From Xestospongia bergquistia (Eukaryota; Porifera; Demospongiae; Haplosclerida; Petrosiidae): a DNA stretch of 64,000 nucleotides. The stretch is taken from positions 248,001 through 312,000 of the forward strand of contig OZ014423.1 of the NCBI GenBank assembly GCA_963965975.1, given 5' to 3'. Made by a program: the position numbers and the translations under genes. The notes under the pieces were generated by a model that saw only the letters and a program-made list of their open reading frames with translations, did not search any database and was not told the DNA's origin. This document shows positions 1 through 64,000 of the stretch, in pieces; within the stretch, counting starts at the first letter, position 1; each line of letters begins with the position of its first letter.

Positions 1-866
1 CACTGATGGAAATATGATAACAGGAGAGGGACACCCAACAGCTAAAACCTCACCTCCTAAATTAATACAGGCAGTTCCTAATGCACCTGCTGTACATTGG
101 GAGCCACACCCACCTCAAGAACTAATAAGTCTACAAGTTTCTGGAACAGGTATGTCAATTGGTAATGCTTTACTTGTTTTGATAATTGCCATGGTTACAA
201 GATTGCTGCTATGCAATTAATGGTTACTATGCAACATTTACATATCCCTAGATACCATACTGACACATTTACCCCCTCCCTTGACTGACCCACAACCTAT
301 ACAACACAGCCCACAGACAACCTCTTCTCTTCCTTGTTTTTCGACATCTTCTTTACCCACTTCCCCTGTGTTGATCAAAAGCAATGGGAGCAGTAATGGG
401 AGCAGTTGTAGTTTGATTAGTAACAGTAACCACACCTCTGTCCCTCCTGGAGGAAAAGTAACTACTACGTGTGGTGGAGGAGGAGGAGGAGCTGCAAAGA
501 AAGCCACACCTCCTGTAATTAATAAAAAGAGTCAACTGGTAATGATTGCTACCGACCCAACTTATTTTACTGGTATGTGTGCTTTTGTGTATGTTCTTTA
601 TGCATCCATTGTATTTTATAATTCTATTTATATGTGTCCATTGTTTTACAGAAGATATGGTACATGGAGGTGATGAACGAAGAATCACTCGGATTGATAA
701 CAATAAACAGGCCACACCTCCTTCATTATCTATTGCTACCCCAGGAAGTACAACTAGTGAACCAGTGACCACACCCACCAGTCAACTGGCCAATGAGAAT
801 GCTGCATTTACATGGATCGAAAATGTACCCACATCTACCAATGATTGGAAGAGAGAGCAGAGATGA
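1..866 (+). CDS. 3' end of an unrecognised Ser/Thr/Pro-rich protein (partial)
   Basis: Only the C-terminal part is in the window. Three exons join in one frame: 1-149, 252-572 and 652-866, with donors GTATGT at 150 and 573 and acceptors ending at 251 and 651; the stop TGA is at 864-866. The product is rich in Ser, Thr, Pro and Asn, contains a run of seven Gly, and ends in NDWKREQR. It has no domain I can name and looks disordered. The motif CCACACC(C/T) recurs five times inside these coding exons, giving repeated ATPP/TTPT residues, which is unusual. The splice frame is well supported (both junctions are phase 1), but the function is unknown. Confidence 0.6.
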
Positions 867-1191
867 CTTGGACCACACCCTTTATTAATATGCATATAAT
901 TTGATGTTATACATGTACATGTACACAAGGTAAGAGGTGGAAGGAAATTACTAGTTTATTTTTAAAAGAAATTACTTTTTCTTAAAAAATTTTTCCAAAA
1001 ATTATAGTTATTTGTTTTTGTAAATTTGCATGTTTTTTGTTTACTTTTATTATACAAAATACTAATTATATAATTTGCTCCTTTAATCAAACAATCATTA
1101 TTCATTTTGTGAGCAAATATTATTGTTTATGATCAAATCCTTTAAAGATTCTTACTATTATATAATTATTTATGTTATAATAATTACTCAA
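867..1191. other. AT-rich intergenic stretch
   Basis: This separates the end of the first gene from the end of OAT (convergent genes). It is AT-rich and has a CCACACCC motif right after the stop codon and a short TACATGTACATGTACA run near 909. I see no gene here. It probably holds the two overlapping 3' UTRs. Confidence 0.5.
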
Positions 1192-2817
1192 TTACTTGGA
1201 TGATACAGGCTTAGTTTTGACATAGTTAATGGTTTCTTCAATGACATCAACAGCTTCTAGGAGTTGTGACTCGGTAATAATGAGAGGTGGGGCAAATCTA
1301 ATGATGTCATTATGAGTTGGTTTGGCTAATAATCCTCTATTGCGTAGTTCCAAACAAACATCCCAAGCAGTGGCACCTAAAGTGGGCGGAGTAGATATGT
1401 ATATTAGTAGGTAGCTTTACCATTTGATTGTGGTTTGATAACAAGAGCATAGAACAGGCCCCGCCCACGAACACATGAGACAATAGAAGATGGCAACTTC
1501 AATAGTTCTTGTTGCAAAATTGGACCTAATTTAGCAGCATTTTCTGCCAATTTTTCTTCTTCAATAACCTATTATTACATTGTTATCACTATTGAATGTA
1601 ACAAAGAGTTATACCTTCATACTGGCAATAGCTACTTTACAAGCAAGAGGATTACCACCATAAGTTGAGCCATGTTGACCTGGTTTAATGGTGAGCATTA
1701 CTTCATCATCAGCTAATACAGCAGATACCTATAAAAGTATTTAATAGAAGATGCTATTTTTGTTGTATTTACTGGAAACATTCCACCAGATAAAGCCTTT
1801 CCCAATACCACAATATCAGGTCTAACTTCTTCATGATCACAAGCTAGCAATCTATTAATAAAATGTAATTTTATGATGTCATTATGATGTCATACTTTCC
1901 AGTTCTTCCAAGTCCAGTTTGTACTTCATCAGCAATAAACAATACCTACACAAATATGAAGTAAATTAGACACTTTGTGCATTTCTTCATTACATTGTTT
2001 TCTTTACAGATGCGCCATGCTTCTCTTAAGTATCCCTCTTGAGGAACAATCACACCAGCTTCTCCTTGGATAGGTTCCACAATAAACCCAGCTACATTGG
2101 GATCAGATACTGCCCTCTAAAAAAAGAATACATCTTGAATACATTATAGTATGTAACAATAGTATTTACTTCAAGAGCTTCTAAATTATCATATGGAATG
2201 ATCTCAAAATTTGGTACATAAGGACCATAGCCATAATAACTTTCTGGATCACATGAGCTGGATACAGCTGCTATAGATCGGCCCCAAAAGTTCCCCTCAA
2301 CAAATATCACTTTAGCATTGTTAAGTGGAATGCCTTTGACATCATACCCCCATCGTCTAGCTAGCTTAATGGCAGTGTCTATAGCCTCTACTCCAGTGTT
2401 CATTGGAAGGAGTTTATCATAACCAAACACATCGGTCATATACTCCTCAAACTCTCCAAGGGCATCGGAATAAAAAGCTCTTGAAGTAAGTGTTAAATGC
2501 TCCAATTGATCTTTCAATGCTTTTACAATCTTAGGATGACGATGGCCTTGATTGAGAGCAGAATAAGCACTCAGAAAATCTACATACTGTCGTCCCTCAA
2601 CATCCCACACATATATTCCCTCCCCTTTAGTAATGGCCACTGGTATAGGATGATAATTGTGAGCACCATATTTCAGCTCTCGTTCAATGACTGCCTCAGT
2701 TGTCACTACTGTTGATGTCAAGGGGGTGGGGTTTTGGATGGAAAACCATCTTATTGGGAAAGAAAAGATAGATCTTTGTGAGCTCAAAATAGATCTTAGA
2801 ACTCTGCTTGATTGCAT
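1192..2817 (-). CDS. OAT: ornithine aminotransferase, mitochondrial
   Basis: PLP-dependent enzyme that converts ornithine and 2-oxoglutarate to glutamate semialdehyde and glutamate in the mitochondrial matrix. The first exon (2817 down to about 2171) has a basic N-terminus beginning MQSSRVLRS, fitting a mitochondrial presequence, then [20 protein letters not shown] and the MNTGVEA stretch typical of class-III aminotransferases. Later exons give [25 protein letters not shown] (its Lys is the expected PLP-binding residue) and [16 protein letters not shown], all in the family order. The exon at 1994-2116 encodes [17 protein letters not shown]. The stop is at 1192-1194. I chose the ATG at 2815-2817 because the longer open frame begins at a TTG. 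Introns are about 50 bases. The gene appears complete. The promoter side faces an inverted-repeat element. Confidence 0.95.
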
Positions 2818-5091: not shown

Positions 5092-5129
<38 letters not shown>

Positions 5130-7004: not shown

Positions 7005-9359
7005 ATGGCGACTCTTGCAGATGAAGTAGCGGCTATCAAGCAGAGTCTTCATCTACTAGCTAATCACGAGTCTGTACCAGAATTTGCTAAGACATGGGAA
7101 GCTATTGGCATGGAACAGCACCTCAAGAAAGACAGGAGAGACAAGATGATCCAGCATCTCTCTGTACTCTTGGTAGAAATGTTAGAAGAGGAGAAAGCTT
7201 TAAAAAAGAGAATGGAAGACAGTATTAACTCTTGCTCCTTAGAACTGAAACAATTAGAACAATTATTGCAGTTATCTAATCAAGTAAATATATACATTGT
7301 TAATACTATGATTGTACATGTCTCCTCTTCTTGGTAGCACGATGAATTTAACTCCAAGACAATGTTAGAAAAAGAACGGCTGCTCAGAGAAAGAGTAGAT
7401 GCTCTTAACAAGATTAAACATGATCGCATGAAACGACTAAAGAGGCTAACAGAAATGGAAGTAGCTTTGTGTCAGAGTTTAGGAGATAAACCTGTAATTA
7501 GTAAAAAATGGCAGGAACAAAATGTACCTTCAGAAGGTGATCTACAAAACTACAGAAAAAGAGTAGAACAATTAGAATCTACTAAGGTATTTTAATTAAT
7601 ATTTTTATTGGTAATTAATTATTTAAATTTTAGGATCAACGCCAAGTAGAGTTCCGTAATATACGAGAAAAAGCCTGTACAATTTGGGAGGAACTAGAGA
7701 CCACACCCACTGACAATCTTGGATCTGTGCTCTATCAAGGTGATGTCAGTCATTTTGTGTTTTCAGTGGACAACATGTCAAAGTTAGAGAAATACTACAT
7801 TACTGTAAGTATATAATAAAATAAAGATATTTAATTATTAATATATTTTTAGTTGGAATCTGCTGCTAGTGAACAAGAAAATGAAGCTAATGAATTAAGA
7901 GAAAAGGTTATTTCACTCTGGGAACGATTAGATATTCCTGTTGAATTTCGTGAAGATTTCCTTTCCAATCACCATGGTTACAAGACTTGGGTTGTTGAGG
8001 AAGCAAGTCTATCGTTTTATTTACTAATCATTTTATTATATTGTTTATCAATTTAGTTACAATCTGAAGTAGATCGTTTGAACATTTTAAAACGAGACAA
8101 TTTGGAGAAATTTATTACAGCCACTCGAGTTCAACTTCATGAAATATGGGACAAATGTTATTATGGTGAAAATCAACGAAAAGAGTTTCTACCTGCTTTT
8201 ACAGGTATGCTAAATGGATTGATAATAAACTGGTAAATGGATGCATATTTATATTAGATGAGTGCAGTGATGATATATTGAGTGCTCATGAAAGTGAGCT
8301 TGATAGGATTAGAGGTTTTTATGCTGACAATAATGAGATCTTTAAACTTATTGAAAAAAGGGAGTCGCTATGGGAACAAAAGAAAGAGATGGATGTAAGT
8401 ATTGTTTAAAAATAAATATGATAATAACTTATTATATTAACAGCATAGAGCTAATGACCCTGCTCGTTTGAACAATAGAGGAGGAAAATTGTTACAAGAA
8501 CAACGTCAACATCAGAAAGTGAACAAAGAGTTACCCAAGGTGTTTGTTCCTGTCATATACCTTTTTAATCTCTCTCTCTCTCTCTCTCAAGACTGAGAAG
8601 AAATTACAGAATATTTTACAACAATGGGAGGACGATCACTCTCGACATTTTATAGTTAATGATCAGCGCTACCTTGATGATGTGGAGAGCAGATGGGACA
8701 ACTACCATCAGGCTAAAGAAGAAGAGAAACTAAAAAGGGTTAGTCATAAGACACAAAGAATGTTACATTTAACAATTTATTAGCAACAAATTAAAGCTGA
8801 AACAACAGTGATGGAAATGAAGTTTGGTAGTAAGCCTCAAACTCCACCTCCTAAGAGGTAATTTCTCTTATGTCCCTGTCAATAAAGTTATAATGACTAT
8901 CTGTTAGAAAAGCCATTGGACCTGCCTCCTCTAATGATCGAGCTGCCAAAATGCGTAAGGTGGGCCCCTCCCCTTTAATTAAATCAACAGCATCAAGTGG
9001 AAAGAAACCTGTCAATAAAGTAATGAGTAATGTCCCTTTAATTATATTTTAATTTTCACAAGTAGACTCCAGCTCGTAAAGTTAAGACTGCTATTAATCC
9101 ACCAAGAAAAATACTAAGAGAAAGGAACACGCCCTCTTCAGCATCTGATTCATTCACAATACATAATGCTTCGTTAGCTTCTACAGGATCTTATAACGAA
9201 TTTCAGGTATGTTACCATGGAAACAATAGATCACTCCTGACGATGTTTTATGTAACATTATTTTTATTGTAGCGTGGTTTAATACAAGGTATGGAATATA
9301 ATAAAACTGCTCGTTCCAGTACTATTCCAAGATCCTCTTCAAAATTAAATATTAACTAA
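7005..9359 (+). CDS. PRC1: PRC1/Ase1/MAP65 microtubule bundler
   Basis: Cross-links antiparallel microtubules in the spindle midzone for cytokinesis. The protein is mostly coiled coil: the N-terminal part (MATLADEVAAIKQSLHLLAN) dimerises and the central spectrin-like part binds microtubules. Family signatures are visible late in the protein: RESLWEQKKEMD, then NRGGKLLQEQRQHQKVNKEL, LQNILQQWEDDHSRHFIVND and VESRWDNYHQAKEEE, matching the human order. The tail is basic with Ser/Thr-Pro sites (KPQTPPPKR), as expected for a CDK-regulated protein. I chose the ATG at 7005, since the open frame only extends to a GTG at 6999. The stop is TAA at 9357-9359. An NRF1-type palindrome precedes it, and one intron holds a (CT)n run at 8570-8588. 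Confidence 0.93.
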
Positions 9360-9445: not shown

Positions 9446-11259
9446 TTAAGGTCCTTGAAGTGATAAATACTTTTTACCATTGACTTCTCGTCTCTCAATT
9501 TGTGGTATAGCTTGAACTATCTTAGCAAGAACTCTCACTATATCTTGTTTAGTCATTTCTGTTTTAAGTTTAATGAATTTCTTTAGAAGGGCTTTCAATG
9601 TCATTGGTTTTCTTAACAAATATCTCTTAACTTCTTCTGGTGTTATGACAGAAAGAGACTCAGTTTTCAATTTTTTAGCTGGAGGAGGAGTGGGTGATGA
9701 TGGTAGCTGTGAACTTTCAGCCTCTCTCTTGAACCCTTTTTTACTTTTTATTTTTTCACTTGATTTACTGGTAGTATCTAAAGTTCAATCATCAGAATGT
9801 CATTGTAATTGACACATACTTGTAGGTTGAATGTTATCTGCTGAAGTATTATCCTTTTCAGTTTCATCATCATCAATGCTGGTGTCTTGAATCTGTTTAT
9901 GCATTAAAGCCTTTAGTTCCTTCCCTAAAAAGAGAAGAATGGTCGTTCGACAATAGATAAAGTTTTAATTCTAGTTTTTTAGTTTACTTACCACTTTCAG
10001 TGAGGTCATCTTCCTCTTCAGATGAGCTACTCTCAGCAAACACTTTATCAATGCCTTGATCTTCCTTTCTCTCTACTTCAGCATCATCACGTGGCTGTTC
10101 CTGGACTGCCTTTCTCTAAAGGAGGACACTCATTCAAAAACAGTTACCCTGTTCTCTAACTTCTTCCTCCTCCTTGTCAGAGCTACTACTTGAGAAATAG
10201 TCCATTTCTTGTGACTCCATGTCACCCTCGTCTGTCTCTTCCCCAGCTTCACTGTCATTTTCTTCACTTTTACTTTTAGGTTTCTTCAGTTTGGGTTTAG
10301 CTTTAACTTTTTTTGATGTTGTAGGTTTCTCTGTGAGGTAATTAATTATGAAGTATTATTGAGTCATACCATCATCACTTCCACCAACTGAAGAGAACTC
10401 ATCCTCAGAGTCATTGTGCTGTTGCTGTACATCACAAATACAAAACAATGAGTTATAATAATACTTACTATCTTATTTACCTTCTTTGTCTTTTCTTCAA
10501 TGACTTCTTCACTTCCTTCTTCTTTCTCTTTAATCCTTTTGCTGACCATGATGGAGAAATAATTTAATGTTTTGTTACGTTTCTCAAACTTCTCTTCAGC
10601 CTCTTCATCATTTAAATAATTATATTTTACTGGTGGGACAAAATCATACCTACATTTTATAAACCATTATTTTATTACAGTAACCATGGTAACCACAAAC
10701 CAATTGGATACAGGATAGACTTCAAAGGTATTGTCTTGACCCAATGACATAAGATAATAAGATGCACTATTATTGATACCACCTTCTTTGCGACCTATAA
10801 AACTACATATGATATATCACTACATCTACCAATGAAAGGGGCACATACTGTTTTCCTCCTTTCTTTTGTTCTCGAAGGATCCATGGCTGATCGTCTGGGT
10901 TAACTCGACGAGTACGAATTCCTCGCTTTCTTCTCCTGGCCTCCTCTCGTTCTTTTTGACGGTACTCCGTACCTTCTCCATATTCAACCTTGCTATTGTT
11001 TTCCTCTACCTTTGTCTCTTGTCTTTCCAACCTTGGCTAATATGGGAATAAGGGGTGTGGCTACAATAGTAATGAATATTATTAAGATATTATAACTTAC
11101 ATTAACTAGTTTTTCTAAGTCACATTTATGAGCTGGTTTAAATCGCATGATGTTAAATTTTTTGTGTTCAGCTCTAATAAAATAATAAATTACATACAAT
11201 GATTAATTGACTTACTGTCCAAACTTGACTTGGTATTCAGTAAAATCTTGAGAGGCCAT
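9446..11259 (-). CDS. GTF2F1: TFIIF alpha subunit (RAP74)
   Basis: Large subunit of general transcription factor TFIIF, which escorts RNA polymerase II to promoters. The N-terminus (MASQDFTEYQVKFGQ, then KKFNIMRFKPAHKCDLEKL) and RRVNPDDQPWILREQKKGGK match the dimerisation part. The middle is very acidic and lysine-rich and probably disordered. The C-terminus is the RAP74 winged helix (VITPEEVKRYLLRKPMTLKA, then GKKYLSLQGP), which in humans binds the phosphatase FCP1. The start codon is at 11257-11259 and the stop at 9446-9448. It is convergent with PRC1 (87 bases apart) and head-to-head with LMAN2, whose start is 80 bases away. Confidence 0.95.
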
Positions 11260-11339
11260 GTTTGAGGACTTTGAGTTTAATGATATTCATTACCTCTGAG
11301 CCACACCCACTCTGCATGATCCTGTCAGCACTACAGCAT
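11260..11339. promoter_or_regulatory. bidirectional promoter, GTF2F1/LMAN2
   Basis: Only 80 bases separate the two start codons, so both genes must be driven from overlapping sequence, or their transcripts overlap. It contains GCCACACCCACTCTGCATG (11291-11309), almost identical to GCCACACCCACTTTGCATG in the CACNB/METTL3 bidirectional promoter. No TATA box is evident. Confidence 0.6.
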
Positions 11340-12819
11340 ATGGCTACTATGAAGAGTGTGATATTGTATTTACTTCTTTCTTTCTCCTTTACCGTTGGAG
11401 AAGAATTTCAAGATCCTTCCTTGACAGCTGAAGGTGGTTATTTTAAGAGAGAGCATTCTCTCTCTCAGCCTTACCAAGGAAGAGGGATGGATGTAAGTAA
11501 TTGATACTGTATGTCATGTGATTATCAGGTGATTTCCACTAGATACCATTTTGGGAATTTGGTGGCTCAACTGTAGTGGCAAACGAGTATATCAGATTAA
11601 CTCCTGATCGTCAGAGCAAACAAGGATCATTATGGAACACTATAGTAAGATTGGTGTGACATATATTAATAATATTTCCTCTTTTTTTCCTCTATATCAG
11701 CCTGTACAGATACATAATTGGGAAATGATTCTTCACTTTAATGTCCATGGATCAGGAAAGAATCTCTTTGGTGATGGGTTTGCTCTATGGTACACTAAAG
11801 ACCGCAATATTATGGGTCAGATATTATGACTATAGCAGAAATTCCTATGCAATATGAAGGCCTAATGTATAAATGAACTATATTTTTAACTCTTTAGGTC
11901 CTGTATTTGGGAATAAGGATTATTTTGTTGGTCTAGCAATATTCTTTGACACGTATAGTAATCATAATGGAGAACATGCTGTAAGTAAACTAAATGTATG
12001 GTGTATTTATTTTATGAATTTCTAGCATGAACATCCATATATTTCTGTTATGGTTAATGATGGTTCAATACATTATGATCATGATAGAGATGGTACTCAT
12101 AGTCAAGTTGCTGGTTGTCATGTAAGAATATATTATTTGTTTAGATAAATAATGTCTTTATTTTCAGGCTAAATTTCGTAACTCAATGTATGATACAAGA
12201 GTTGCAGTCTCTTATATCAATAGACAAGTAATTGTAAGTTGTAAAACTAGTTTATAATACCTGTCAAACTGGTTTTACTAGGTAATGACGAGTATTGATG
12301 ACACGAACGATTGGACCCCTTGTCTTGTTGCTAATGATATCGACTTACCAACAGGTTATTACTTTGGGTTCTCAGCAGCAACAGGGGATTTAGCAGGTAT
12401 CAAAGAATAAAATCAGTAGATGAGGGGTGTGGTCTTTTCATTTTAGACAATCATGACATTATTTCTGTCAAGGTTTATGATGTAGAATCTGAAGATAGAC
12501 CAACAAAAGAAGTACTAATAAGAATATAGTATTTTTAACCACCACACCTCTTTAATTAGGAACTGGATTGGTCTACTGTACAGCCTCGTGCTCAAAGTAA
12601 AGACCCACCACGAGGTGAGCCTGTCCCTTCTTGTTACACGATAATTATTATCTAATTATTTCAGCTCACATTTCTGATAGCCCTCCTCTAATTCGGCCAT
12701 TTTGGTATCGGTTCTTTTCAATATCAATGATAGTTGTACTAGTAATTGTTGTTTTGGCAGTTATTGGAGGTGTGGCTTGGAAGAAAAAACAAGAAAGAAA
12801 CAAAAAACGTTTCTTTTAA
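11340..12819 (+). CDS. LMAN2: L-type lectin cargo receptor, VIP36-like
   Basis: Type I membrane lectin that binds high-mannose glycoproteins and shuttles between ER, Golgi and plasma membrane. A signal peptide (MKSVILYLLLSFSFTVG) precedes the lectin domain: EHSLSQPYQG, YWEFGGSTVVANEYIRLTP, DGFALWYTKDR, FFDTYSNHNGEH and the His/Asp-rich VNDGSIHYDHDRDG. The carbohydrate/Ca-binding acidic and Asn residues are in place, and DLPTGYYFGFSAATGDL closes the fold. Near the end are one membrane segment (MIVVLVIVVLAVIGGVAW) and the cytosolic tail KKKQERNKKRFF, the KRFY/KKFF-type ER-exit signal of the VIP36/ERGIC-53 family. I chose the ATG at 11340 (MATMKS); 11349 would serve equally well. The gene appears complete. 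Confidence 0.93.
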
Positions 12820-12994: not shown

Positions 12995-15475
12995 TCAAAC
13001 TTGACTCTCCATTTTAAGTCTAGTTCTCAGATGATCATTACTACCATTAAAGTTCAAAGCATGGGTCTCTACAGGAGATACTTCGCTACTAGTACCTGTG
13101 GTATAACCACTGCTATCAGGATCCTTTGATTGAGAATGTACAGTCATTTCTTGCAGAGGCTTTGTCTTCAACAGGTGAGTTATATTGGTGAGACCAGCAC
13201 CACCAGTTAAACTTGCCTGAAGATCTATTGTTTCTGCAACTTTCCATTCTTTTGAGAAGACATCACTACGAGGTGTGGAATTACCTAGACCATGTTCTTT
13301 CTCAAAACGAGAAGCTTTATAAGCAGCTATATAACGTTGCCGAGTAACAATTAGAACAAGACAATCTGCACCAGGTCTCACAGTAAAGTCTGGAATATAA
13401 GTTGGAGGGATTTTGTCAGTGGATGGCTCTACATCTGTGAGAGCTTTAGCACCAAATGAATAAAAACCACGGGCTTCAAATTCCATTCCTTCTTCTCCAA
13501 TAGTTACAATTAAACACCCTTCTAATAAGAGAGTGAAATAGTTTGCTGGTACTCCAAGTTTGTAGAGACAAAAGTCTTTCTCGTGAGCAATTTTAAAAAC
13601 AATATCTTGTTGAAGTAAACGATGGAGAATGGTCTTGGAAATATCCTGAAATGGTTCCACAGCTTAAAAGAAAAGTAAAAGATGAAATCATTATGTTATT
13701 ATATTACCTGATGCTAAGAATTGTTTCACAGCTAACATTTGAGGTGCTGACAAACAGATCATTGGTGTTGTATACATCACATTACCAACATCAACCATGT
13801 TCTTTCTCTCGTGTTTTTTTCTTGTAACATTATCCTCTAATAAAGGCAGAGAAACAAGTTTGATTAACCAGTTTAGATAACTTACCAAACTGGTCATACT
13901 CATCTACTATTTCTTGACCAATAATCTCTTCAATGACATCCTCAAGAGTGACAATTCCTAGAACAGAAGAATACAGTAACATGTATGAGAGACCACACCC
14001 ACCTAATATTTTATAATCGTTATCCTTTTTATCATTCTCTATAACACAACGAATGATGGCCATATGATATCTCTCCTCTACAAAACTTTGTAACATTTGA
14101 TCAAGGGTAGTTTCTGGCCACTCAAAATTTGGCTCACGATCATAAAAATCTTTCAACTATAAAACAATCAGAATATACCACAATATTATCATCTTACTTG
14201 TTTTACTGGAGTACAATCTTCAGGATCAATAAAGGTAAGATCTCGAAGATGTAATATTCCAACAATATTGTTACGATCTTCTTCATACATAGGTATTCGA
14301 CTAAATCCACTGTCATAAATTGTTTTTATTGTCTGGAAGTCCAATACACCATTTATATCAATGCAGAAAACATGTTCAAAAGGTGTCATTATCTCGCTGA
14401 CTTTTTTTTCTTTAAATTTAAGAGCACCATGAAGTATACCCAATTCATATTCATTTATATCAGCATCTTCTTGAGTGACATTAAGCAATTCCAATAACTG
14501 TTGTCTATTATAAACAGAACCTATTTCTTTGCCAAGAATTAAGTTCAAAATCAAACTTAAAGGTAAAGATAGAGGGAAGGTGAGAACCATAAAAACATAT
14601 GTTAATGGAATAGTGTATGCCCCTATTAATAGTCCATAACGAGAACAAATTGCTTGAGGGACTATCTCACCAAATATTACAATAGCTAATGTTGCACCAA
14701 TGACAGCATAAAGACCACTGCCTATTACACTGTCCAATAGGATAGTGAAAGTACTGTTTACCAAGACATTGCCTAGCAACAAAGTACATAGCAAGTAGTT
14801 GCCATGACGACGGACACGATAGATTAACTTAGCATATCTTTTCTGAGATTTTGATCCACTCTTTATAATTATTTTTAATGTGACTGGATCTAATGCCATC
14901 AGTCCGAGGTTGAGACCAGAAAACAATCCTGAAAGACACATCAATACAATAATGAATACTATTGTTACTGGCAATGGTAGAAGTGAACTACTAGCAGGTT
15001 TAAGATGAAGTGTCAGCCATGATTCATTACCTTGGTGAACATAATTATCTCCTTCATTTCTTAAACAAAAATAAAGAATTCTTTCATCAGAGATGAGGGG
15101 AAAAGACACAGTGTATTCAACTCTAACTATATCACCCTTCTCTTGTGATATTGACGTAATATCTACTGTACCATAAAGAGACTGAGACTCGTCACAAGTG
15201 GTACTGGACTGAGTCCATTTGACAATAGTAGTATTGGTGGTATCAATGGTGAACATTAAGAGAGAATGGCTGGTACTTGGATCGAGGAGAAAGATGCCAT
15301 CATTACTTCCTTGTAGACTTCCCAATGGTTTAAAGGAGATCAATTGAGGTTGATTTTGAGCCAACGATGGTTTTTGAAGAAGGAGTACTAACAATCCCAG
15401 TAGAATAGACCTCACTAGACAGCCATGTGGGCTCAAACGCGTCTCTGATTTGATGTAAAACAAACTTGATGCCAT
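12995..15475 (-). CDS. CNNM: CNNM (ACDP) metal transport mediator
   Basis: Membrane protein of the CNNM/CorC family, linked to Mg2+ efflux or sensing. Exon 1 (14198-15475) carries a signal sequence, an extracellular domain with NxT/NxS sites, and the DUF21 membrane domain (LFSGLNLGLMALDPV, HGNYLLCTLLLGNVLVN, IFGEIVPQAICSRYGLLIGA). The CBS-pair module follows (VSEIMTPFEHVFCIDINGV, SGFSRIPMYEEDRNNIVGIL, then LGIVTLEDVIEEIIGQEIVD). The last exon has the cyclic-nucleotide-binding homology domain (YKLGVPANYFTLLLEGCLIV ... FGAKAL). The order and lengths are those of animal CNNM2/4. The donor after the second exon (at 14002) is formed by the GTGGGTGTGG motif. The start is at 15473-15475 and the stop TGA at 12995-12997. 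Confidence 0.95.
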
Positions 15476-16214
15476 TCAACGATCAATAAGTCCTGACAAA
15501 AGTGATCTAGGCAACCTTTGCCAGAAAGAAACACAGTGGTAATAAGCACGTAACCTTTAATATACGGAAATAGACGGAAACATTCTAAATTTAATACAGA
15601 AACGTTCGTATATACTACATGCTATGGGTGTGGTGAGAAGCGAAATGGGATATATTATATATTCATTGATCACTCAATGGGTGGAAAAAATAATTCGCAC
15701 ATCTGCTATTATAATTATTCCTTATTTTAAGTGGGAGTATGCAACTGGAGGTACTTATTTTGACTTGTTATGGCAACCAAACTACTTAAATACATGTACA
15801 TGTTTACATCTATTGCCTCTTATTGTAGTATATGACATTGTAGTGTTAACGATATAATTTTTTCTCACCATCTTTTCAAACTTGACCAGCAAAATGAGCA
15901 GAAAATACATATAAATGTATTTATTTTATAAAATAAAAAGTAACAGAAAAAAACAATGTTATTAATTTCACATTAAAATATGGTGTCCCTTCAGCCTGTG
16001 CCAGGGAGTCCTGTATGTGCCACAATACACAACACTAAACAATAATAATGAAAACACATACAGACATACACAAAAAATGCAAAACAGTATTAATTTAATT
16101 TGAAGCACTATAGACCCTTAATTTATGTAGGTCATAATATTCTTTATATTTTTTAAACATTCTGGCACCTTCATGAATTTCTGATTGAAACATTCTTGTC
16201 TTTAACTATATGTT
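15476..16214. other. CNNM upstream region
   Basis: The part beside CNNM holds the promoter-type repeat at about 15555-15635. The rest is AT-rich. An open frame at 15624-15857 (77 codons) shows no similarity I recognise and no splice continuity, so I do not call it a gene. A short GC-richer patch (GCCTGTGCCAGGGAGTCC) lies near 15993. Confidence 0.4.
15555..15635. repeat. short promoter-associated repeat, copy 1
   Basis: ATATACGGAAA ... GGAAACATTCT ... AATACAGAAACG ... TATGGGTGTGG. The same ordered blocks occur at 36792-36882 (before synaptojanin/MRPS22) and, in shorter form, at 17845-17897 (before UVSSA). Copy 2 has inverted TATACGG/CCGTATA ends. This may be a tiny MITE or a shared regulatory module. 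Confidence 0.55.
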
Positions 16215-17844: not shown

Positions 17845-17897
17845 TACAGAAACGTAATGCAGGAAACTGCTTTAATATTCCGTATACTATGGGTGTG
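17845..17897. repeat. short promoter-associated repeat, copy 3
   Basis: TATACAGAAACG ... GGAAACTGC ... ATTCCGTATACTATGGGTGTGG, ending 17 bases before the UVSSA start codon. It shares its ordered blocks with the elements at 15555 and 36792. Confidence 0.55.
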
Positions 17898-17914
17898 GTT
17901 ATATATCATTAATA

Positions 17915-24833: not shown

Positions 24834-25020
24834 TTTCTTGCATTGGCGAGCCACACCCCAAAATTGGTTTGGAAAAGAGTAGCCACGCCCTTTCAATCGA
24901 GAGCTAAATTGTACACACGCAGGATTGAACAGTTTACTATTCTACTATTTAGAATGAATGATAAAAATGCAAAGTAGATTTGTACTTAACAAAGACATAT
25001 ACATTTGATGACAGTCATAC

Positions 25021-42200: not shown

Positions 42201-42613
42201 AGTTAGCTTGGAGACAATACCAACGTAGGAAATTATTACATTATGCTCTTAGAAGAAAAAAGATATTGCATCAGTGGACACCAAGGTATAGTATTGATCA
42301 GTTGTCTATTATTTTATTTATTCTTTATCAGTGTTCTAGCTGCTAAGCAACGCCTTTTAGTTGAGAAAGTTTATGGTAAGCCACACCCCTTCATTAAAAT
42401 AATTATATTTATTGGTTTTTATAGGACAAGAATTGAAAGTGGTTCAATACGAGCCTCCAAAACCACGCCCCATGGTCCGTCCGGCCTATCTTGAGCTTGT
42501 TCCTTCACCAGCTGGTATGTAAAATATTATTATTATTATTTTTACATTTTTATTATATTTTAGCTCTTTCCTTTAACTTTGCTGTCTACCAATATCAACA
42601 TTCCTTAGCATGA
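39240..42613 (+). CDS. INVS: inversin (nephrocystin-2)
   Basis: Ankyrin-repeat scaffold of the proximal primary cilium and Wnt/planar-polarity signalling. About fifteen ankyrin repeats run in the family's order: LNLAAYKGDKEQLNILLKEH, GRTPLMYAAMANQVTTVEFL, MTALHWCAYNNNAEGVKKLL, GKTALHWTANNSDD, RTPLHWAAVLGLSQIV, GYSPIFRACERGHSEVVLTL, and the diagnostic last repeat QRLTPLDYAILEEHHDLAQL with VEQGALTISSIQELAA. The latter corresponds to human TPLDYALLGERHEVIQ...EHGALSIAAIQDIAA. IQ motifs follow (MIQKIIRGYLTRKK and more, e.g. IQLAWRQYQRRK). The first coding exon contributes just the ATG at 39240-39242, with donor GTAAGT directly after it. One donor (39939) is made of GTGGGTGTGG. Confidence 0.93.
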
Positions 42614-42769: not shown

Positions 42770-46352
<3,583 letters not shown>

Positions 46353-46452: not shown

Positions 46453-49303
46453 TTATCGTTCTAAAACTGACAAGAAAGCTTCTCTACTTAATTCAATGTT
46501 ACCAATTCTCTTCAGTTTTTTCTTTCCTTCACGCTGTTTTCTTAAAAGCTTCATCTTTCTAGTAATATCACCACCATACTAATGATAAAGTGTACATTAA
46601 TTTTAGAGTAAACTTTTAAAACCTACACATTTTGCTGTGACATCTTTCCTTAATGCTTTCACACTTTTAAAAAAACAATAAATATCAACTCAATTATAAC
46701 ACATACGTTTCCCTAGCGATGACACGGCCACTCACAGCTGCTTGTATTGCTACTTCATATAACTGTCTACACATGTACAAGTACATATGATAATATTGAA
46801 CAACCAATGTACCTGTGTATAGTGTCCTTTAATTGTCTACAAATTGACTTTCCAATGTTGTAAGCTTTATCAGTATGTACTATACATGATAATGCATCAA
46901 CAGATTGACCATTGAGGAGAATGTCCAACTATTATGTTATAGTTGAAATGGATAAGAAGATTGTGTGTGATACCTTCACAAGATTGGCTGGTTGATAGCC
47001 TGCGTCTTCATAATCAAAGCTATATAAGAAACGAAATGTGTTAAAATCGATGTATCTATTTTATTGTAACTGTCCATTCTTCTATATCATTTGTCCATTA
47101 CTGATACCTGGCATAGCCGGATGAAAGACTCTTGACTTGATCGAAAAAGTCTACCACTACTTCACTGAGAGGTAAATGATACTTTAACAAGACCCGAGAA
47201 CTATCTAAATACACCAACCTCTCTTGAATACCACGACGACTCTAATAATAATAATAATAATAATAGGGATTGTCCCTTTTCTAGCCAGCTGTACCTGACA
47301 CAGCTGTAACATCTTCCCAAGATACTTGTCAGGAAAGATCAGTGTTCCTTTCACTTTTGGTTCTTGTAATTCTTTTACTTTGTGTTTATCAGGAAACTAT
47401 CACCATGGCAACAATAATACATGTACATGTCATGATGTGTCTTTACGTACATCTGAAGGATTTAAAATGAGGCGTAGCTCTCCTTCATTTGTTAATGCTA
47501 AATGTGGATGAATAGTACAAGAATAGATGTATAGCACAAGAATGGATGTATAGTCATCACCTTGATAAGGCACACTGGGTGTGGTCACTAATACTGACGC
47601 ATTGAACTCCTACAATTAACTATAATATAATTATATTAATTAATTATTGTCACCTCTTCAAGACGCTGAGTAAAGACATCCATATGTAATAATCCTAAAA
47701 ACCCTACTCTCCATCCTTGACCGAGAGCATTACTAGAATCAGGTTTTACAATGACACTGCTATCATTAAGAATAAGTCTTTCAAGAGATGAACGAAGATT
47801 GGGATATTCTGACTGATCCATTGGATAAATACCAGCAAATACCTGTCATGTGATGATATAAATGCTAACAGTTATTATTACTGACCATTGGTTTAGCTGG
47901 ACGGAAGCCTGGTAATGCTTGAACCTCAGAAGAGGTGTGGCTAAATGTATCTCCAATGTGTGCTTCGCTACTTGATCTCATCCCAAGGATTACGTAACCA
48001 ACTTGACCTGTTGACCTATTAATACACTTGATTTGGGCGTGGCTATAAATAAGACTTACAACATTGTTTGAGGAACTTGGACAGGTTGAAGTATTCCTAA
48101 TTCAGCTACCTCATATTTACGTCCAGTATGAGAAGAACACACCACGTCTCCTATAATAGTGTCCAAATATACAGTATATCTTATCATGTACTAACCTCGT
48201 TGGATACTACCATCAACTATGGTTACCAAACAGACCACACCCCTGTATTGATCATACCAGCTATCAAATAGGAGCATCCTCAAAGGTCCCTCAACACAAC
48301 CTGAAGGACTAGGGACTTGATCAATTAGTGAGTTTAATAAATAGTCACTGCCAGTTCCTAATTTAGCAGACACCTAATAAAATATGTATCCATTCTACGA
48401 CTATCCATCCATTTAACAAAACCTGAAGAACTTTGTCTTTTTCAAATCCAAAAGCTGATTTCATTTGTTCCAATGTACTTTGTATATCAGCTTTTGGTAG
48501 ATCAATCTGTTGACAAATGATCAATAAAATATTCCTAATTATTTCATAATTATACTTTATTAATTACAGGGACAACCTTTAAACCAGCTTCATAAGCTAG
48601 CATAAAATTTGCTACTGTTTGCGCTTGCACACCCTATATATAATAATAAGTTATAATAAATTATAATAACTAAGTAGGTAAACTAACTTGTTGAGCATCT
48701 ACTAATAATACAACACCATCACAAGCAGAGAGAGAGCGAGACACTTCATAACTAAAGTCAACATGACCCTATTATAATCACTTGTTATCACTATATTATA
48801 ATGGGACACTATGTACTGGTGTGTCAATGAGGTTTAACATGTATTGCTGTATAGGACTTATTGAGGATTGCTTTGTATAAAACATAGTTGCTGTTTGAGC
48901 CTTTACTGTAATTCCTCTTTCTCTTTCAACTGGTAATCGATCAAGTAACTGTTGGTTATTTGGACTGGCCGGTACAATACCTATGCAATTAAATGGGTGT
49001 GGTTAATATACATGTACATGCATATTATTACCAGTCACTTCTAGTAATCGATCAGCCAATGTGCTCTTCCCATGATCCACATGAGCTACAATGCTGAAAT
49101 TTCTAATCCTCTCTATAGGCCATTCCCCTATCTATTAGAGAGTAACATACCATACTGTAATTAATTATTGCATTTATTGGTAAAAATAAAATATTAAATG
49201 TAGCACTTTATTCGCTGACTTGTGTTACAAATGTCCTTAAATTTACTGGAAAACTACAACATTCATAGCTCTTTCTTAAAGGTACTGATAATAATCGAAT
49301 CAT
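46453..49303 (-). CDS. GUF1: mitochondrial translation factor GUF1 (LepA/EF4)
   Basis: GTPase that acts on stalled mitochondrial ribosomes. Exon 1 encodes a mitochondrial presequence ([19 protein letters not shown]). Exon 2 carries the P-loop GTPase motifs [20 protein letters not shown]. Later exons give [16 protein letters not shown] (switch I), [40 protein letters not shown] with NKIDLPKAD, then [57 protein letters not shown] and the LepA-specific end [20 protein letters not shown]. The G-domain His of VDHGK is present. The start is ATG at 49301-49303 and the stop TAA at 46453-46455. It lies 86 bases head-to-head from FHIP2. Confidence 0.95.
47240..47262. repeat. (AAT)n microsatellite in a GUF1 intron
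   Basis: An uninterrupted TAA/AAT trinucleotide run of about seven to eight units in a short intron between GUF1 exons. Confidence 0.8.
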
Positions 49304-49389: not shown

Positions 49390-52037
49390 ATGTTCAGTCG
49401 TCTCTCTAACCTAATAGCTCAGGCAGCAGAAGTAACTACACACGTGGTAAGTAGTCTACTATAATATTCTTTATATTGTAATAAGTTCATGTGTGTTCTC
49501 TCTCTCTTAGCTCGTTGGTCAACAAAGTAAAGAAGACGAATTACAAGGACATTGGAAGACTATAACACATCTTATCTCAGAAGCAGGTACAGTGAATTAT
49601 AATATGATTCTTAACCACATCCACTAAAACTAGACTCAGAGACTGAACCATGTATGCCAGAGATCTCCACTCATTTAGATCGTATGGCTGACCTTCTATT
49701 TAAAGAAGAAGAGGAAGACAATCAATTATCAATGGTAACTAGTTAACACATCACATAACTTATTATCACCTCGTTACTTAGGGGCCATGTATGGAATTTG
49801 TAATAAGGCACAAATTAATGGACACTTTATTTGCAACTGGAAAAAGTGATGTAAGTTATCACATCACATCTAACTACTATAACCTTCTCTTTTAGTATCC
49901 AGCTGGAATGAGAAAAGTGGTTTTTCAATTTTTTTCTCTTTTACTTGGAAGGATACGCCAGCCCCTCTTACCTCATATAGCAGTACACAGACCAATCAAT
50001 GTATAGGAAATCATCTAATAATATGATTTTTCTGTTCATTTAATAGAATCTAATAAAAACATGTGGTCTTAGTTTTGTTAATCCTTTGGCAGTCGATGAA
50101 ATTCAATTTTTGAAAACTGTATGTTTCACTCTAAAAACAGATCCAACTCTTGTCAACTTCTTTTTAGAGGTACTCTAGATTCTTTCATTGTTAATTTTAT
50201 TGTATTTTTGTCTCTAGGAAACAGATGGTCAACAAAAAGAAATCATCTTTACAGTGGCTGAAGCACTCATGAGAATAACAAACAGCGAGGTAGTAAATGA
50301 AAGTAGTATCCTTACTTGTCATTCTCTTGTCATAGGAGAGCCTAGTATGTCTGAAAGCATTTGAATGTCTTCTTTTTTGTGTATCTCTTAAAAATGTTTC
50401 TGATTTACTAGCTAAGTCACAATTTCCTCTTCTTCTTGCCTCTAAAATGAGACAACATTTACAATTACTTCCTTCAACGCTGACTTATACAGACATATTA
50501 AACTGCAAAGCAGGATGGGGGTATGTATCCTTTTAATTATTATTATAATTATGTATTTTTAGAGTTAATTATGCCAGTAGTACAGCCATCCAATGTCTAT
50601 CTCCGTCTCCACGACAACCACTACTTCATTTGGAGGCTTATCTTTCTTGGTTAGATTATTTTGAACAAGCTATAGCGGCAGCATCAGAGGTAAGCCACGC
50701 CTTTTCATTACACGAGGCCTATATTTTTCTATTTTTCTAGATATTACAAGAGTGTATGTGTGAGTGTATTAGAAAGCAAGTATTAGAGGGTGTGGTCTTA
50801 TCAAAACTTTCATTGTCATCTGAAGCAGAGTTAGTAATTGGATTAACATTGCTTACTCAGAGTCTAAGAATTGTGACTTACAAAAGGTTAATTCAAGGTA
50901 TAAAAAGAGAGAAAAACTAACTTATTTTAAATACTATCATTGCAGAAATTATCCAGTTCATACTGACCCATGCTATGGATCAGTTAGTTCAGTCTTGTAA
51001 TCATCTTAATGAAGACGTTTGTAGTGCATCTTTTCTTCTCCTGCTCACTCTCTTTCATCTTCCTACTCTTCCTCATTTTCTCCCTCTCCGTTACTGGGAA
51101 CAAGATCGTAATGACATTGCTGATAAACAACATTTAGAAGCTATTGTTAATAGGTAATTCTTTTTTCATATCTTTCAGGATGAATTACATTTTTTAGTTA
51201 CTTAAATATTGTTCCATCTCATTTGTTATCGGCACATGAAGTGGGTGGAGACAGTGGTCTGACGCATTACTTAATAGAAGCTCATCATCAGGTAATGATT
51301 GTATGTTTTATTTTGTTTTAAATGACAATAATCTCAGGTCTCAGAATCTAGACAATTGGCCACAGACACATACACTCTCACTGCACCCAGTTTATCAAGA
51401 GACAATGATCATGAGACAATTCTAATAACAGGACTACTTGACAGATTAGAAAGACTACTAGACCAGGTAATGTTAACCAAATACAATAACTCCACCAACT
51501 GAATTTTTCTACCAATAGACATATGATCTGAACTTACATTTGACATCAGTTTTGTCTCGATTAGCAACATTCCCTGAAATGTATCCACTGTTTAGCATAG
51601 ACCAGACTCCATCACGTAATGTATACACAGTCCTTCAAAAGGTAGTCATGATGTGTTAAATTCTCCTTTTATCATATACCTACATAGGTCAGCAGTCAGT
51701 TACAAGCTCATGCTGATAGAAGTCCAGGTCTTCAGCTAAACATTATTGAAGCTCGTCGAAGATTACTTGGAGAAGAGACATCGGATTTATTAAGGTAGTA
51801 TTATATGTAAGAATTAACTTGCTGTTATTAATTTTTGTAGTATGCCAAATAACGAGTTATTGGAAGGTGCGGTCATTCTGGAAGAGTTCTCGAAAGTATG
51901 TAATATGATATCATCTTTAGTGTAAAATTTATTTCTTTTAGGAACTAGCTACCATACTTTATGCCAAGTACTCCACAGATTTTCTAACTGTATCAATATC
52001 TAATGACATAGTTGATCTTTCACCTCCTCCTCAGTGA
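49390..52037 (+). CDS. FHIP2: FHF complex subunit FHIP2 (FAM160B-like)
   Basis: Hook-interacting protein of the FTS-Hook-FHIP complex, which couples Rab-marked cargo to dynein. It begins [19 protein letters not shown] and continues [50 protein letters not shown] and [20 protein letters not shown], then [16 protein letters not shown] and [20 protein letters not shown]. These match human FAM160B1/FHIP2A closely. The rest is an all-helical repeat structure with [14 protein letters not shown] and [20 protein letters not shown] near the end. It ends VDLSPPPQ with TGA at 52035-52037. There are about fifteen small exons. Confidence 0.88.
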
Positions 52038-52437: not shown

Positions 52438-54644
52438 ATGGAGACGTCTACAGCAGGTGAAACTGCACTATCAGAACTGATCAGTGACGGTCTTTCTGCA
52501 GTAAATGGATCTATTCTAGTGAAGAAGGAAGAAGACGTTAATTCTCCAACTTTGAGCTCCACCCAAGTAGAACTACAACTGAAGGACGAGGTCCCATCTG
52601 TTCCTGGGACAGTAAGTGATACTATCGGTCATTGTTTAATTTTTTATTTTTTTATTTCAATAGTCCCTTCATTGCTGTCCTAATGAAGAAGACTCAATAG
52701 ATTTTTATAATGTACTTACTGCTGATCAAGATGTCTTTCGTTGTCAAAGTCCACTTCTAACTCAACCCAATTCTAACAACAATGCAAATACTGGTAGTAC
52801 CCATTGCTCACCATTAATGCAATGCCAAGATCCTCCGTTCTCTGACTTATCTTCTAGTAGTGCAGTCCCTCTGCCTCATCAACCACCTCAACCAATTGTT
52901 ATACCAACTAGCAAGATCACTAGATTGTGTTTAAAGCATCCACATGTAGAAGTGACATTAGATGGTAAAGAGTTATGGGATGAATTCTATAAAAGAGGAA
53001 CTGAAATGATTGTTAATCGTGCAGGAAGGTAGTTGAGAGTAATAACAGCTAGTTTGTAAACTAACTTTTTGTTTATAATTTTAGACGAATGTTTCCTGGA
53101 TTTTCAGTTAGTATAAGTGGACTTAAACCTAAGTCAAAATATACAATGAAAATAGATATATTGTTAGCTGATAATCATAGATTCAAATTTCTCAATGCTA
53201 GGTTTGTTGATGGCATTATTTTATATACTAATTAGTTCTAATATTTTAGGTGGATAGCTGTAGGTAGCGCTGAGCCTCAGTCGTCTTATGAGACATATGT
53301 TCATCCTGATTCTCCTAATACAGGCTCATTTTGGATGAGACACGGTGTGTCATTTCGCAAACTCAAGATTACAAACAATAAAGACAAACCTGGTCTAAAC
53401 GTATGTCAAAGCAACTTATAATAAACCATTTTTTTCTTTAATTTTTAATCAGGCTCTTTTACATTCAATGCATAAGTATTATCTTCGTCTTGTGATTGAA
53501 GAAGAGAGGAAATGTCCTCCTGGAGAACCCAAGCAAGAACCACGTCCTATATTGTCAGTGGAATTCCCAGAGACGACATTTATTGCAGTGACAGCATACC
53601 AGAATGAGGAAGTAAGATAACATCTATACTAATGTAAATTGACAGGTGCAATATATTGTATAATTTTTGTATAATTGTTTTTATAATAATAATAGGTTAC
53701 TCAATTAAAAATATCAAATAATCCATTTGCTAAAGCATTCCGAGAAAATGCAGCTGACTTGTAAGTAAAATTGACATTGCAAAGTATTTTTCAGTCTCTT
53801 CTTTTATCTGTAACACAGAGATTGGGAAACGGCTCAAGCTCTTTATGGTTCATCTGGATACTTAAGTCATACTGGACCAATTAATCACTCTGGTAAATCC
53901 ATGACACAAATTCATAACAGTTGCCCACTCAGTTACAAACACCATGAGAATTACGCATAGTATATGTCCTTTTAAGATGACAAGTTTCCACACCCAGAAA
54001 TTACCAACCACTAACCGGCTTCATCAGTTGTTGTGTTTACAGTAAAACTATTGAGATGTCTGTCTCCCAACAGTTTGCATGTTCAGCCAAGATTGTTATT
54101 GCTTGAATCAGTCAGTTGATTTTGTGGTCATTAACACAGTCTGTTATAAAGATGACTTAGTTAGTTTGACAAATAGTTGTATGTAGAACGCCTCAGGTGT
54201 GACTGTTAAAACTAATATTAATTACTTTTCTCTTTTCTATCATCAGTAAATTACCTCATGTCACCCACTACATCTCCGTGGGCACTCCAATCTCCTATGT
54301 TATCTCCCCTTTCTATCCCTCCTGGACCCTCGTCTCTTACTCCTGGTCCCCTTTCTCACCAGTCACACCATCCTCAATCTCATTACAGTCCAGAGTCACC
54401 TCATTTTCGTCACCATTATCCATCTGTGACTACACCATCAAGTCCTGGTTATTTTCAATGGCCACAATATCCTATTAATAGGACTACTGAAATGATGTCA
54501 TCGTTAACATATCACCACCAGCAACACCCCTCATCCCAAACTATTGGTACACCTATGCATTCCATAGAGAGTTCTAATTCATTATCATATCCAACCTTAC
54601 CAGATTTTGACAGTATGTTTATGTCACCTACTACCCATTCTTAA
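52438..54644 (+). CDS. T-box transcription factor
   Basis: DNA-binding developmental regulator. A disordered N-terminus (METSTAGETALSELISDG; a long acidic, Ser-rich stretch) leads to a full T-box over five exons: VEVTLDGKELWDEFYKRGTE, MIVNRAGRRMFPGFSVSISG, LLADNHRFKFLNARW, YVHPDSPNTGSFWMRHGVSF, RKLKITNNKDKPG, LHSMHKYYLRLVI, FPETTFIAVTAYQNEEVTQL and KISNNPFAKAFREN. The base-contacting FPETTFIAVTAYQN and NPFAKAFR motifs are present. WIAVGSAEPQ and a 14-residue basic/Pro insert (EEERKCPPGEPKQEPRP) differ from bilaterian Brachyury, Tbx2 and Tbx4/5, so I cannot assign a class. The last exon follows a long intron (about 53893-54246) and is Ser/Pro/His-rich, probably for activation. Confidence 0.93.
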
Positions 54645-56594
<1,950 letters not shown>

Positions 56595-63800: not shown

Positions 63801-63981
63801 GAACCTCCAGCTAAACGTCCTCGACAAATTGAATCATTTAAAGAACCTCCAGCTATAAAGTCCTCTGATTCTTTTTCCTTTAATTATGATGTAATTAAGA
63901 AGGAGAAACCCAATCCATCAGACGACTTCACTTTTAACGTTCAAACTACATGTGTTTTTGGCAACATTCCTAAGGTCTTTG
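60823..63981 (+). CDS. 5' part of an unrecognised disordered basic/serine-rich protein
   Basis: The protein continues past the window. Short first exons give MNLVINRIDPKTVQCRNDDG and LIQSDKRGSLCVSIPRDKLR, then a Pro/Ser-rich block (LPTTPPSAVPPPCSLIPSSL) and a strongly basic block KPLRARKRPLRRPRRVLDSS that looks like a nuclear localisation or nucleic-acid-binding stretch. The fourth large exon is acidic (EDMIFEEEELLLKDEECVYS). The last visible exon is Lys/Ser-rich (KRRVKVRLKERSPS; SIEPPAKRPRQIESF) and ends at a GTAAGA donor at 63982. I do not recognise a domain. Composition suggests a chromatin or nuclear scaffold protein. An intron of about 0.7 kb (62562-63274) is large for the window. Confidence 0.65.
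61790..61862. repeat. 16-17-base tandem repeat in an intron
   Basis: Four to five units of GTAATATATGTAATGG with G/A and T/G changes, close to the acceptor (TTCTATAG) of the next exon of the last gene. Confidence 0.85.
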
Positions 63982-64000
63982 GTAAGACCACACCCACTAA

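Follow-up and report, generated by a model that had tools for sequence, protein, structure and literature searches.

Background

The stretch of DNA analyzed here, hereafter the window, covers 64 kb of the genome of the sponge Xestospongia bergquistia (assembly GCA_963965975.1, contig OZ014423.1, C13:248001-312000), and it raises a simple question: why does one octamer, CCACACCY (Y being C or T), occur in it 50 times when dinucleotide shuffles lead one to expect 2.15 copies (largest shuffle, 7)? Judging from its consensus and from the substitutions that it tolerates, we propose, with a probability of roughly 0.6, that the word is a DNA-level CACCC-box recognition site for three-finger KLF-class C2H2 proteins of this animal.

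Results

The genome is represented by 21 contigs (146.46 Mb in all), among which C1-C15 measure 5.4-28.2 Mb each and C16-C20 less than 0.1 Mb. A preliminary description of the window, made by eye, had reported about 40 copies. The excess that it noticed is stronger than stated, and its count was too low, since the 64000 bases hold 53 copies of CCACACC (3.71 expected; maximum of 100 shuffles, 9) in addition to the figure given above for CCACACCY. Each of its 26 example positions has a copy no more than 9 bases away, and for 21 of them the distance is at most 2; its observations on flanks and orientation were borne out: A or G precedes 49 of the 53 copies, C or T follows 50, and 31 are forward and 22 reverse. 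Among 8-mers with at least 12 copies in the window, CCACACCC was the most over-represented under Markov models of orders 1-4 (34 observed against 2.73 expected at order 4). Since this genome is rich in AT, Markov models set low expectations for words rich in GC, and reversed and mutated words were therefore also used as controls. Genome-wide, CCACACCY was found 20222 times and its reversed word 3627 times; for RCCACACCYHH the counts were 16871 and 1062. The suggestion that the signal is genome-wide thus held when it was examined with the reversed word in place of a third-order Markov model. Directly adjoining doublets of the motif were absent from the genome, the spacing of 96 forward sites on C1 was near Poisson, as it was for 95 control sites, and Rfam at gathering thresholds gave no match in the window.

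The motif is sharp-edged and about 12 bases long, RRCCAC(A/G)CCC(A/C)(C/T)T. At 60 further C1 sites, drawn from the first 100 places, the base at -1 was a purine in 53 and little information was present further out. In the C-form, the core is followed by A or C, then C or T, then T, with almost no G at these three bases, and A or G occupies -2 at a frequency of 0.86 among 44 C-forms in 104 kb (the window and 20 kb on each side) and 0.70 among 40 elsewhere. The CpG form CCACGCC(C/T), with 19 copies, has similar flanks. One-base neighbours of the word were counted in 254 kb against an order-2 model. Every change at base 4 gave at most 0.6-fold, and changes at bases 2, 6 and 7 gave at most 2.1-fold, being absent or near background. 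Excesses were found for base 5 changed from A to G (CCACGCCC, 71-fold, 15 copies) or from A to C (CCACCCCC, 18-fold, 10 copies), for base 3 changed from A to C (CCCCACCC, 11-fold, 6 copies) and for base 8 changed from C to T (CCACACCT, 7-fold, 31 copies); a change of base 1 to A was weakly tolerated (4.2-fold). This spectrum is summed up by CC(A/C)C(A/G/C)CC(C/T). Genome-wide, CCACGCCY occurs 4159 times against 176 for its reversed word (23.6-fold), despite CpG depletion (CpG observed/expected 0.09-0.54 over 28 pieces), while the three base-4 variants CCADACCY, taken as a negative control, occur 14491 times against 13560 reversed (1.07-fold). The motif behaves as a recognition site and not as a decaying repeat.

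We read that site as one of KLF type because the tolerance of substitution, mainly at bases 3, 5 and 8, fits the published KLF1 element, CCMCRCCCN (PMC5920080). It is matched exactly by 34 of the 50 window copies, those with CCACACCC, and the 16 copies with CCACACCT depart from it at the last C. KLF3 has been assayed on CCACACCCT (PMC3708807). As a KLF-type site the motif is well supported, and its reader would most likely be a KLF-class zinc-finger protein. The motif probably corresponds to the KLF9 motif GCCACRCCCACY of the HOMER collection, a string that did not turn up in the papers searched for it. Ten zinc-finger loci were fetched from the genome and yielded seven three-finger domains, of which five are KLF-like and two Sp-like, as well as a partial one, the classes being those that we presume from helix signatures. 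KLF-type fingers are present in loci L020-L024 (in L020, KSSHLKA, RSDELTR and RSDHLAL), and L025 and L027 look Sp-like. Compared with PDB, L020 had KLF5 and KLF4 as its best natural three-finger matches, behind multi-finger ZNF568 chains. KLF-class proteins would accordingly be expected to bind the motif, and the domains of L020-L024 would bind RCCACRCCCACY.

Other C2H2 genes were seen as well. Multi-finger arrays lie at C7:844-900 kb and 3.43-4.34 Mb, C1:1.67-2.14 and 7.68-7.77 Mb, C4:9.69 Mb and C13:414-415 kb; with at least 200 and at least 186 matches to two finger queries, they supply candidate alternative readers of the motif. The array at C1:2089251-2136243 contains 10 copies of CCACGCCT, spaced a few kb apart and seemingly upstream of genes. 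The window itself contains an EGR-type gene (55248-56594) with three fingers in one open frame, and a relative on C15 has four fingers and is 66% identical. Taken together, the EGR, KLF and Sp zinc-finger genes indicate an animal.

Copies were placed relative to genes with a home-made hidden Markov model, trained on long open reading frames (ORFs) without transcripts and applied to the 104 kb. It predicted 33 genes with a median intron of 53 bp, figures reminiscent of a compact genome of sponge type. The model calls exons too freely (46 of 104 kb), at least one ORF (29310-29732) escapes it, and it has probably fused two genes at 39-46 kb. Seven of ten predicted proteins were submitted to Pfam, and all seven scored above the family cut-off (ADF/SH3, MAP65, TFIIF-alpha, CNNM, UVSSA, MRP-S22 and LepA). 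Gene 18 is presumably synaptojanin-like, and we take part of gene 21 to be ankyrin-repeat-like. Predicted intron lengths peak sharply at 45-54 bp (124 of 293; C13:228001-332000).

The window copies fall in predicted exons (19), in introns shorter than 100 bp (14), in longer introns (8) and between genes (9) (Table 1). The preliminary description had placed them mostly in introns and promoters and also in exons; the gene model puts 22/50 in introns, 19/50 in exons and 9/50 between genes. The 104 kb hold 64 copies, 22 of them exonic and 12 intergenic, and the intronic ones comprise 13 sense and 17 antisense. Non-coding DNA of the 104 kb has 42 copies against 1.68 expected under an order-2 model.

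Several other words are enriched in the window and its 20-kb surroundings, namely TCACATGA (38 against 6.31), GTACATGT (27 against 5.56), CTCCGCCC (8 against 0.24) and CGTTTCCC (9 against 0.47); the ranked list from which they come excludes CCACACCC through a two-letter filter, and its sample leaves out locus L004. The first two lie mainly in predicted introns (25/38 and 18/27).

Table 1 Copies of CCACACCY in the window, with their placement by the gene model
Form	Position in window	Strand	Placement
CCACACCC	104..111	+	predicted exon, gene 5
CCACACCT	430..437	+	predicted exon, gene 5
CCACACCT	504..511	+	predicted exon, gene 5
CCACACCT	712..719	+	predicted exon, gene 5
CCACACCC	769..776	+	predicted exon, gene 5
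CCACACCC	873..880	+	just past predicted stop, gene 5
CCACACCC	7701..7708	+	predicted exon, MAP65-family gene 8 (inside MAP65 domain exon)
CCACACCC	11053..11060	-	64-bp predicted intron, TFIIF-alpha-like gene 9
CCACACCC	11301..11308	+	46 bp upstream of predicted ATG, gene 9
CCACACCC	12425..12432	-	92-bp predicted intron, gene 10
CCACACCT	12542..12549	+	48-bp predicted intron, gene 10
CCACACCT	12768..12775	-	predicted exon, gene 10
CCACACCT	13271..13278	-	predicted exon, CNNM-like gene 11
CCACACCC	13993..14000	+	45-bp predicted intron, gene 11; adjoins 5' splice site
CCACACCC	15626..15633	-	155 bp upstream of predicted ATG, gene 11
CCACACCC	17891..17898	-	20 bp upstream of predicted ATG, UVSSA-like gene 12
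CCACACCC	22396..22403	-	251-bp predicted intron, gene 13
CCACACCC	24851..24858	+	500-bp predicted intron, gene 14
CCACACCC	26167..26174	+	between divergent predicted ATGs, genes 14/15
CCACACCT	28189..28196	+	predicted exon, gene 16
CCACACCC	28255..28262	-	52-bp predicted intron, gene 16
CCACACCT	28776..28783	-	268-bp predicted intron, gene 16
CCACACCC	28938..28945	+	34 bp upstream of predicted ATG, gene 16
CCACACCT	30366..30373	-	called intergenic; gene model misses nearby ORF 29310-29732
CCACACCT	31397..31404	+	183-bp predicted intron, gene 17
CCACACCC	33328..33335	+	predicted exon, gene 18
CCACACCC	34243..34250	+	353-bp predicted intron, gene 18
CCACACCC	34329..34336	-	353-bp predicted intron, gene 18 (same intron as copy 34243..34250)
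CCACACCT	35859..35866	+	predicted exon, gene 18
CCACACCC	35975..35982	+	47-bp predicted intron, gene 18
CCACACCC	36333..36340	+	predicted exon, gene 18
CCACACCT	36874..36881	+	71 bp upstream of predicted ATG, MRP-S22-like gene 19
CCACACCC	37378..37385	+	predicted exon, gene 19
CCACACCC	39941..39948	-	44-bp predicted intron, gene 21; adjoins 5' splice site
CCACACCC	41448..41455	+	predicted exon, gene 21, presumed ankyrin-repeat-like part
CCACACCC	42145..42152	+	48-bp predicted intron, gene 21
CCACACCC	42381..42388	+	49-bp predicted intron, gene 21
CCACACCT	42926..42933	-	predicted exon, gene 21
CCACACCT	44044..44051	-	49-bp predicted intron, gene 21
CCACACCT	44472..44479	-	50-bp predicted intron, gene 21
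CCACACCC	44760..44767	+	predicted exon, gene 21
CCACACCC	45762..45769	-	49-bp predicted intron, gene 21
CCACACCC	46052..46059	+	71-bp predicted intron, gene 21
CCACACCC	47577..47584	-	412-bp predicted intron, LepA-like gene 22
CCACACCT	47933..47940	-	predicted exon, gene 22
CCACACCC	48235..48242	+	41-bp predicted intron, gene 22
CCACACCC	48995..49002	-	396 bp upstream of predicted ATG, gene 22
CCACACCC	50788..50795	-	predicted exon, gene 23
CCACACCC	53988..53995	+	354-bp predicted intron, gene 24
CCACACCC	63988..63995	+	predicted exon, gene 27

Discussion

Dispersed regulatory use of KLF sites is our default reading, in which binding at many dispersed gene-body sites, for cis-regulation or chromatin organisation, would keep the sites in place. 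The word shares its consensus and its tolerated substitutions with the CACCC boxes and KLF-Sp sites of other systems, and KLF- and Sp-type genes are present here; it differs from them in not being concentrated at predicted gene starts, in its exonic excess and in the lean of its long form toward contig ends. In Amphimedon queenslandica, KLF and Sp1/GC-box motifs are reported to be enriched near transcription start sites (PMC4773876), and Krueppel-like motifs to occur in H3K27me3 regions (PMC5429095). That sponge also has a compact animal genome with a KLF-type motif among the enriched ones, but the motif is near start sites there, whereas copies are spread through gene bodies here. A regulatory role, which the preliminary description had entertained, is plausible in that the consensus is KLF-type and KLF genes exist, but CCACACCY shows no enrichment near predicted gene starts.

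A number of observations weigh against this reading. From -300 to +100 of predicted ATGs, CCACACCY is not enriched (8/64 against 6.9 expected), which rules out a promoter element as its main location. Near predicted ATGs, CCGCCC shows a slight enrichment (4/13 against 1.4 expected, p 0.044), and the wider KLF class CCMCRCCY is borderline (14/81 against 8.8, p 0.052). The 42 non-coding copies show no clear co-clustering within 100 bp with any of 13 words, two of which were too rare to test; TCACATGA accompanied none of the 42 (null 1.70), and the nearest exception was the motif's own CpG form (2/42, null 0.38, p 0.052). Cis-regulatory modules built on co-clustered words were thus not found among the 13. 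The 46 kb of predicted coding sequence hold 22 copies, where a shuffle of synonymous codons that keeps the proteins leads one to expect 1.93 (largest of 300 shuffles, 7), an excess of about 11-fold, while the shifted control word [CT]CCACACC is near expectation (3 against 2.24); the exonic copies also lean sense, 15 against 7 antisense. The large C2H2 arrays are a further difficulty, since any member could be the true reader. Density is moreover regional. Per 10 kb, the genome averages 1.38 copies and the window has 7.8, which makes the window atypical; the 40 kb around it have 3.5 (14 copies), and a 147.5-kb sample taken 1 Mb from the starts of contigs has 1.2 (18 copies). Finally, the long form RGACCACACCCACY is concentrated toward contig ends: of 84 copies on C1-C6, 38 are no more than 500 kb from an end, against 6.0 expected (28/65 against 4.7 after neighbours are merged). 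Apart from these points, the E-box word CACGTG is frequent near predicted ATGs (8/18 against 1.9 expected), resembling the G-box-type E-box reported in bidirectional promoters of Amphimedon (PMC4773876).

The end-bias counts use contig ends, which are not proven telomeres. For RGACCACACCCACY, they cover the first 100 of 243 copies less one on C7, 13 of one family on C2 and two near neighbours on C6; with the C2 and C6 copies kept, the count becomes 40/99 against 7.1 expected. Within 500 kb of the ends of C1-C4, TAGCCACACCCMT (first 100 of 310 copies, less 15 on C5) has 15/85 against 5.2, or 10/63 against 3.8 when merged. AAACCACACCTCT (first 100 of 108, less two on C14, neighbours unmerged) has 21/98 against 9.4 within 500 kb of contig ends. 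The mutated control word AAACCATACCTHW (all 47 copies, less 13 near neighbours) is flat, with 2/34 against 3.5 within 500 kb and 8/34 against 7.0 within 1 Mb. The splice-donor word CAAGGTAAGTAAT (all 38 copies, less nine of a tandem run on C10) has 1/29 against 3.0 within 500 kb and is raised within 1 Mb (11/29 against 6.0), so gene density may contribute to the end bias. As the cause of the density differences, gene density was rejected: coding fraction is only weakly correlated with density (rho 0.42, p 0.02, 28 pieces), and neither the sample nor the 104 kb shows a correlation when taken separately. Twenty 600-bp stretches, 12 kb in all, each lying 200 kb in from a contig end, hold three copies (0.25/kb), which speaks against an end effect of uniform strength. 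Copies are sparse in the first 2.4 Mb of C1, as judged from 100 forward copies, and the terminal 400 bases of 14 contig ends, of which four are N, hold three copies in 4.0 kb. Interstitial telomere repeats were dismissed as a source, as the sole telomere-like array in the ends read is TTTAGGG at the end of C2, unrelated to the motif. That array closes C2:16129849-16130248; 90 bases of the other 13 ends are N or lack such an array. TTTAGGG is the plant-type telomere unit, the usual animal unit being TTAGGG. From simple use in promoters or enhancers one would expect neither the exonic excess nor the regional concentration, and both better fit a putative DNA process blind to genes, such as conversion bias or a role at chromosome ends.

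One such process would be drive, in which a protein bound to the motif biases conversion toward the motif allele, for example by protection from breaks, so that the word spreads wherever recombination is high, coding or not. Drive would account for the excess in predicted exons and non-coding DNA together, for intronic copies in both orientations and for an end bias shared by three forms of the motif and absent at 500 kb from the mutated and donor words. Its premise of high recombination at the ends is an assumption, however, gene density may explain part of the bias in view of the donor word within 1 Mb, the stretches 200 kb from ends are poor in copies, and the CpG form is no denser in the 104 kb than in a 150-kb sample (5 against 10 CCACGCCC); we consider drive improbable. 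A chromosome-end function like that of nematode pairing centres, where a zinc-finger protein on a dispersed motif would serve meiotic pairing or attachment to the nuclear envelope, suits a short C2H2-type motif that occurs in both orientations in introns and intergenic DNA and whose long form gathers toward the ends of several chromosome-size contigs. The motif is also present in contig interiors, however, and we know of no pairing-centre-like role outside nematodes, which makes this very unlikely. A combined account, which we hold unlikely though worth stating, is that a KLF-type motif became a self-spreading or chromosome-organising word through a protein bound in meiosis (by break protection and biased conversion, or by end pairing), and would hence have accumulated toward the ends in exons, introns and intergenic DNA, as the equivalent in an animal of the HIP1 or uptake sequences of bacteria.

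Splicing, which the preliminary description had also raised, fails as the main role, given the near balance of sense and antisense intronic copies and comparable exonic and intergenic density. An RNA-level element of very short introns, rich in G close to the 5' splice site and in C close to the 3' end, would be expected where the motif is in fact densest, in introns below 100 bp (1.51/kb against 0.55 in other non-coding DNA; 16 of 42 copies in 10.6 kb; p 0.002, post hoc). In these introns, 9/10 G-forms start at an offset of at most 19 from the 5' end and 4/6 C-forms start in the second half, an orientation bias that may nevertheless follow from the base composition of intron ends. Both orientations occur, however, the word is in excess in exons and intergenic DNA too, and 120 predicted short introns of the 1-Mb sample have a single copy (0.15/kb against 0.08-0.16; small numbers). 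Short introns being ordinary in that sample, we read their density here as a regional effect, with the caution that small numbers require; a splicing element is scarcely probable, though the motif may make a minor contribution to splicing. The idea that the motif is a remnant of a mobile element, a terminal repeat or an intron-generating element is already largely refuted, and we give it next to no weight. Motif-masked 208-bp flanks of 81 copies (window, surroundings and a 15-locus sample), compared all against all, gave only overlaps between adjacent copies, a tandem repeat (L004), a single match of 44 bp at 82% and a few others that were short and weak, and against all 254 kb a few flanks matched local repeats (e.g. 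L011, L015 and C13 at about 241 kb). As the preliminary description had said, no larger repeat is common to the window copies; its alternative of a tiny repeat's footprint is not supported, given the same flanks and the position-specific tolerance of substitution. The flanks of 60 C1 copies are almost without information, and one copy lies inside a MAP65 domain exon. Repeat-borne copies do exist, in a C2 family with shared 214-bp surroundings, in the array of L004 and in four copies at the start of C1.

The C2 family (C2:13371494-14932347) is dispersed and has 13 copies, all on the minus strand, 85-100% identical over most of the 214 bp and each with AGACCACACCCACT. The C1 copies, at 6309, 10210, 14111 and 18012, are exactly 3901 bp apart and form a tandem array. 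Pairs of TAGCCACACCCAT 128 bp apart, at C4:4652334/4652462 and C5:4581365/4581493, 4705454/4705582 and 4820560/4820688, are probably a dispersed repeat with two copies. Three introns start with GTGGGTGTGGTC; an intron-generating element was rejected for them, since GTGGGT can serve as a donor site in its own right and the three introns are otherwise different.

Several known systems bear comparison. Bacterial HIP1, uptake sequences and Chi are over-represented in coding and non-coding DNA, and nematode pairing-centre motifs are biased toward chromosome ends. The bacterial octamers, cyanobacterial HIP1 among them, resemble the present case as single words in great excess in both kinds of DNA; here the genome is that of a eukaryote and the word is non-palindromic and of CACCC type. 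The proteins that bind pairing centres have zinc fingers and recognise motifs in the sequence (PMC8455136). The C. elegans motifs (HIM-8/ZIM) and the sponge word are both dispersed and of zinc-finger type, and a bias toward chromosome ends may be common to them; many copies here are also in contig interiors. Loop-anchor motifs have been described in ctenophores (CTEP1/2) and placozoans (a Mutator terminal inverted repeat) (PMC12221973). As a C2H2-bound word of promoters and enhancers in a non-bilaterian animal, the ctenophore motif is alike; it is GC-rich with two CpGs, and the placozoan one lies in a transposon end. Unlike either the pairing-centre or the loop-anchor motifs, the sponge word is known from sequence alone. 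By analogy, the nearest functional counterparts would be the loop-anchor motifs of ctenophores and placozoans and the pairing centres of nematodes. In the titles and abstract openings that were searched, with subscription papers largely outside the search, no animal genome, of a sponge or otherwise, was described as having this word in excess.

Conclusions

The word's high frequency may come from regulatory use, as the default reading, or from a DNA process blind to genes. Promoter use does not readily account for an exonic excess that persists with the protein fixed, together with the clustering of the long form toward contig ends. If ordinary KLF binding is responsible, KLF sites are spread through the gene bodies of this sponge at a scale that promoter studies would miss. 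If it is conversion or a chromosome-end function, the motif would offer direct access to the meiosis of an animal whose genome is compact.

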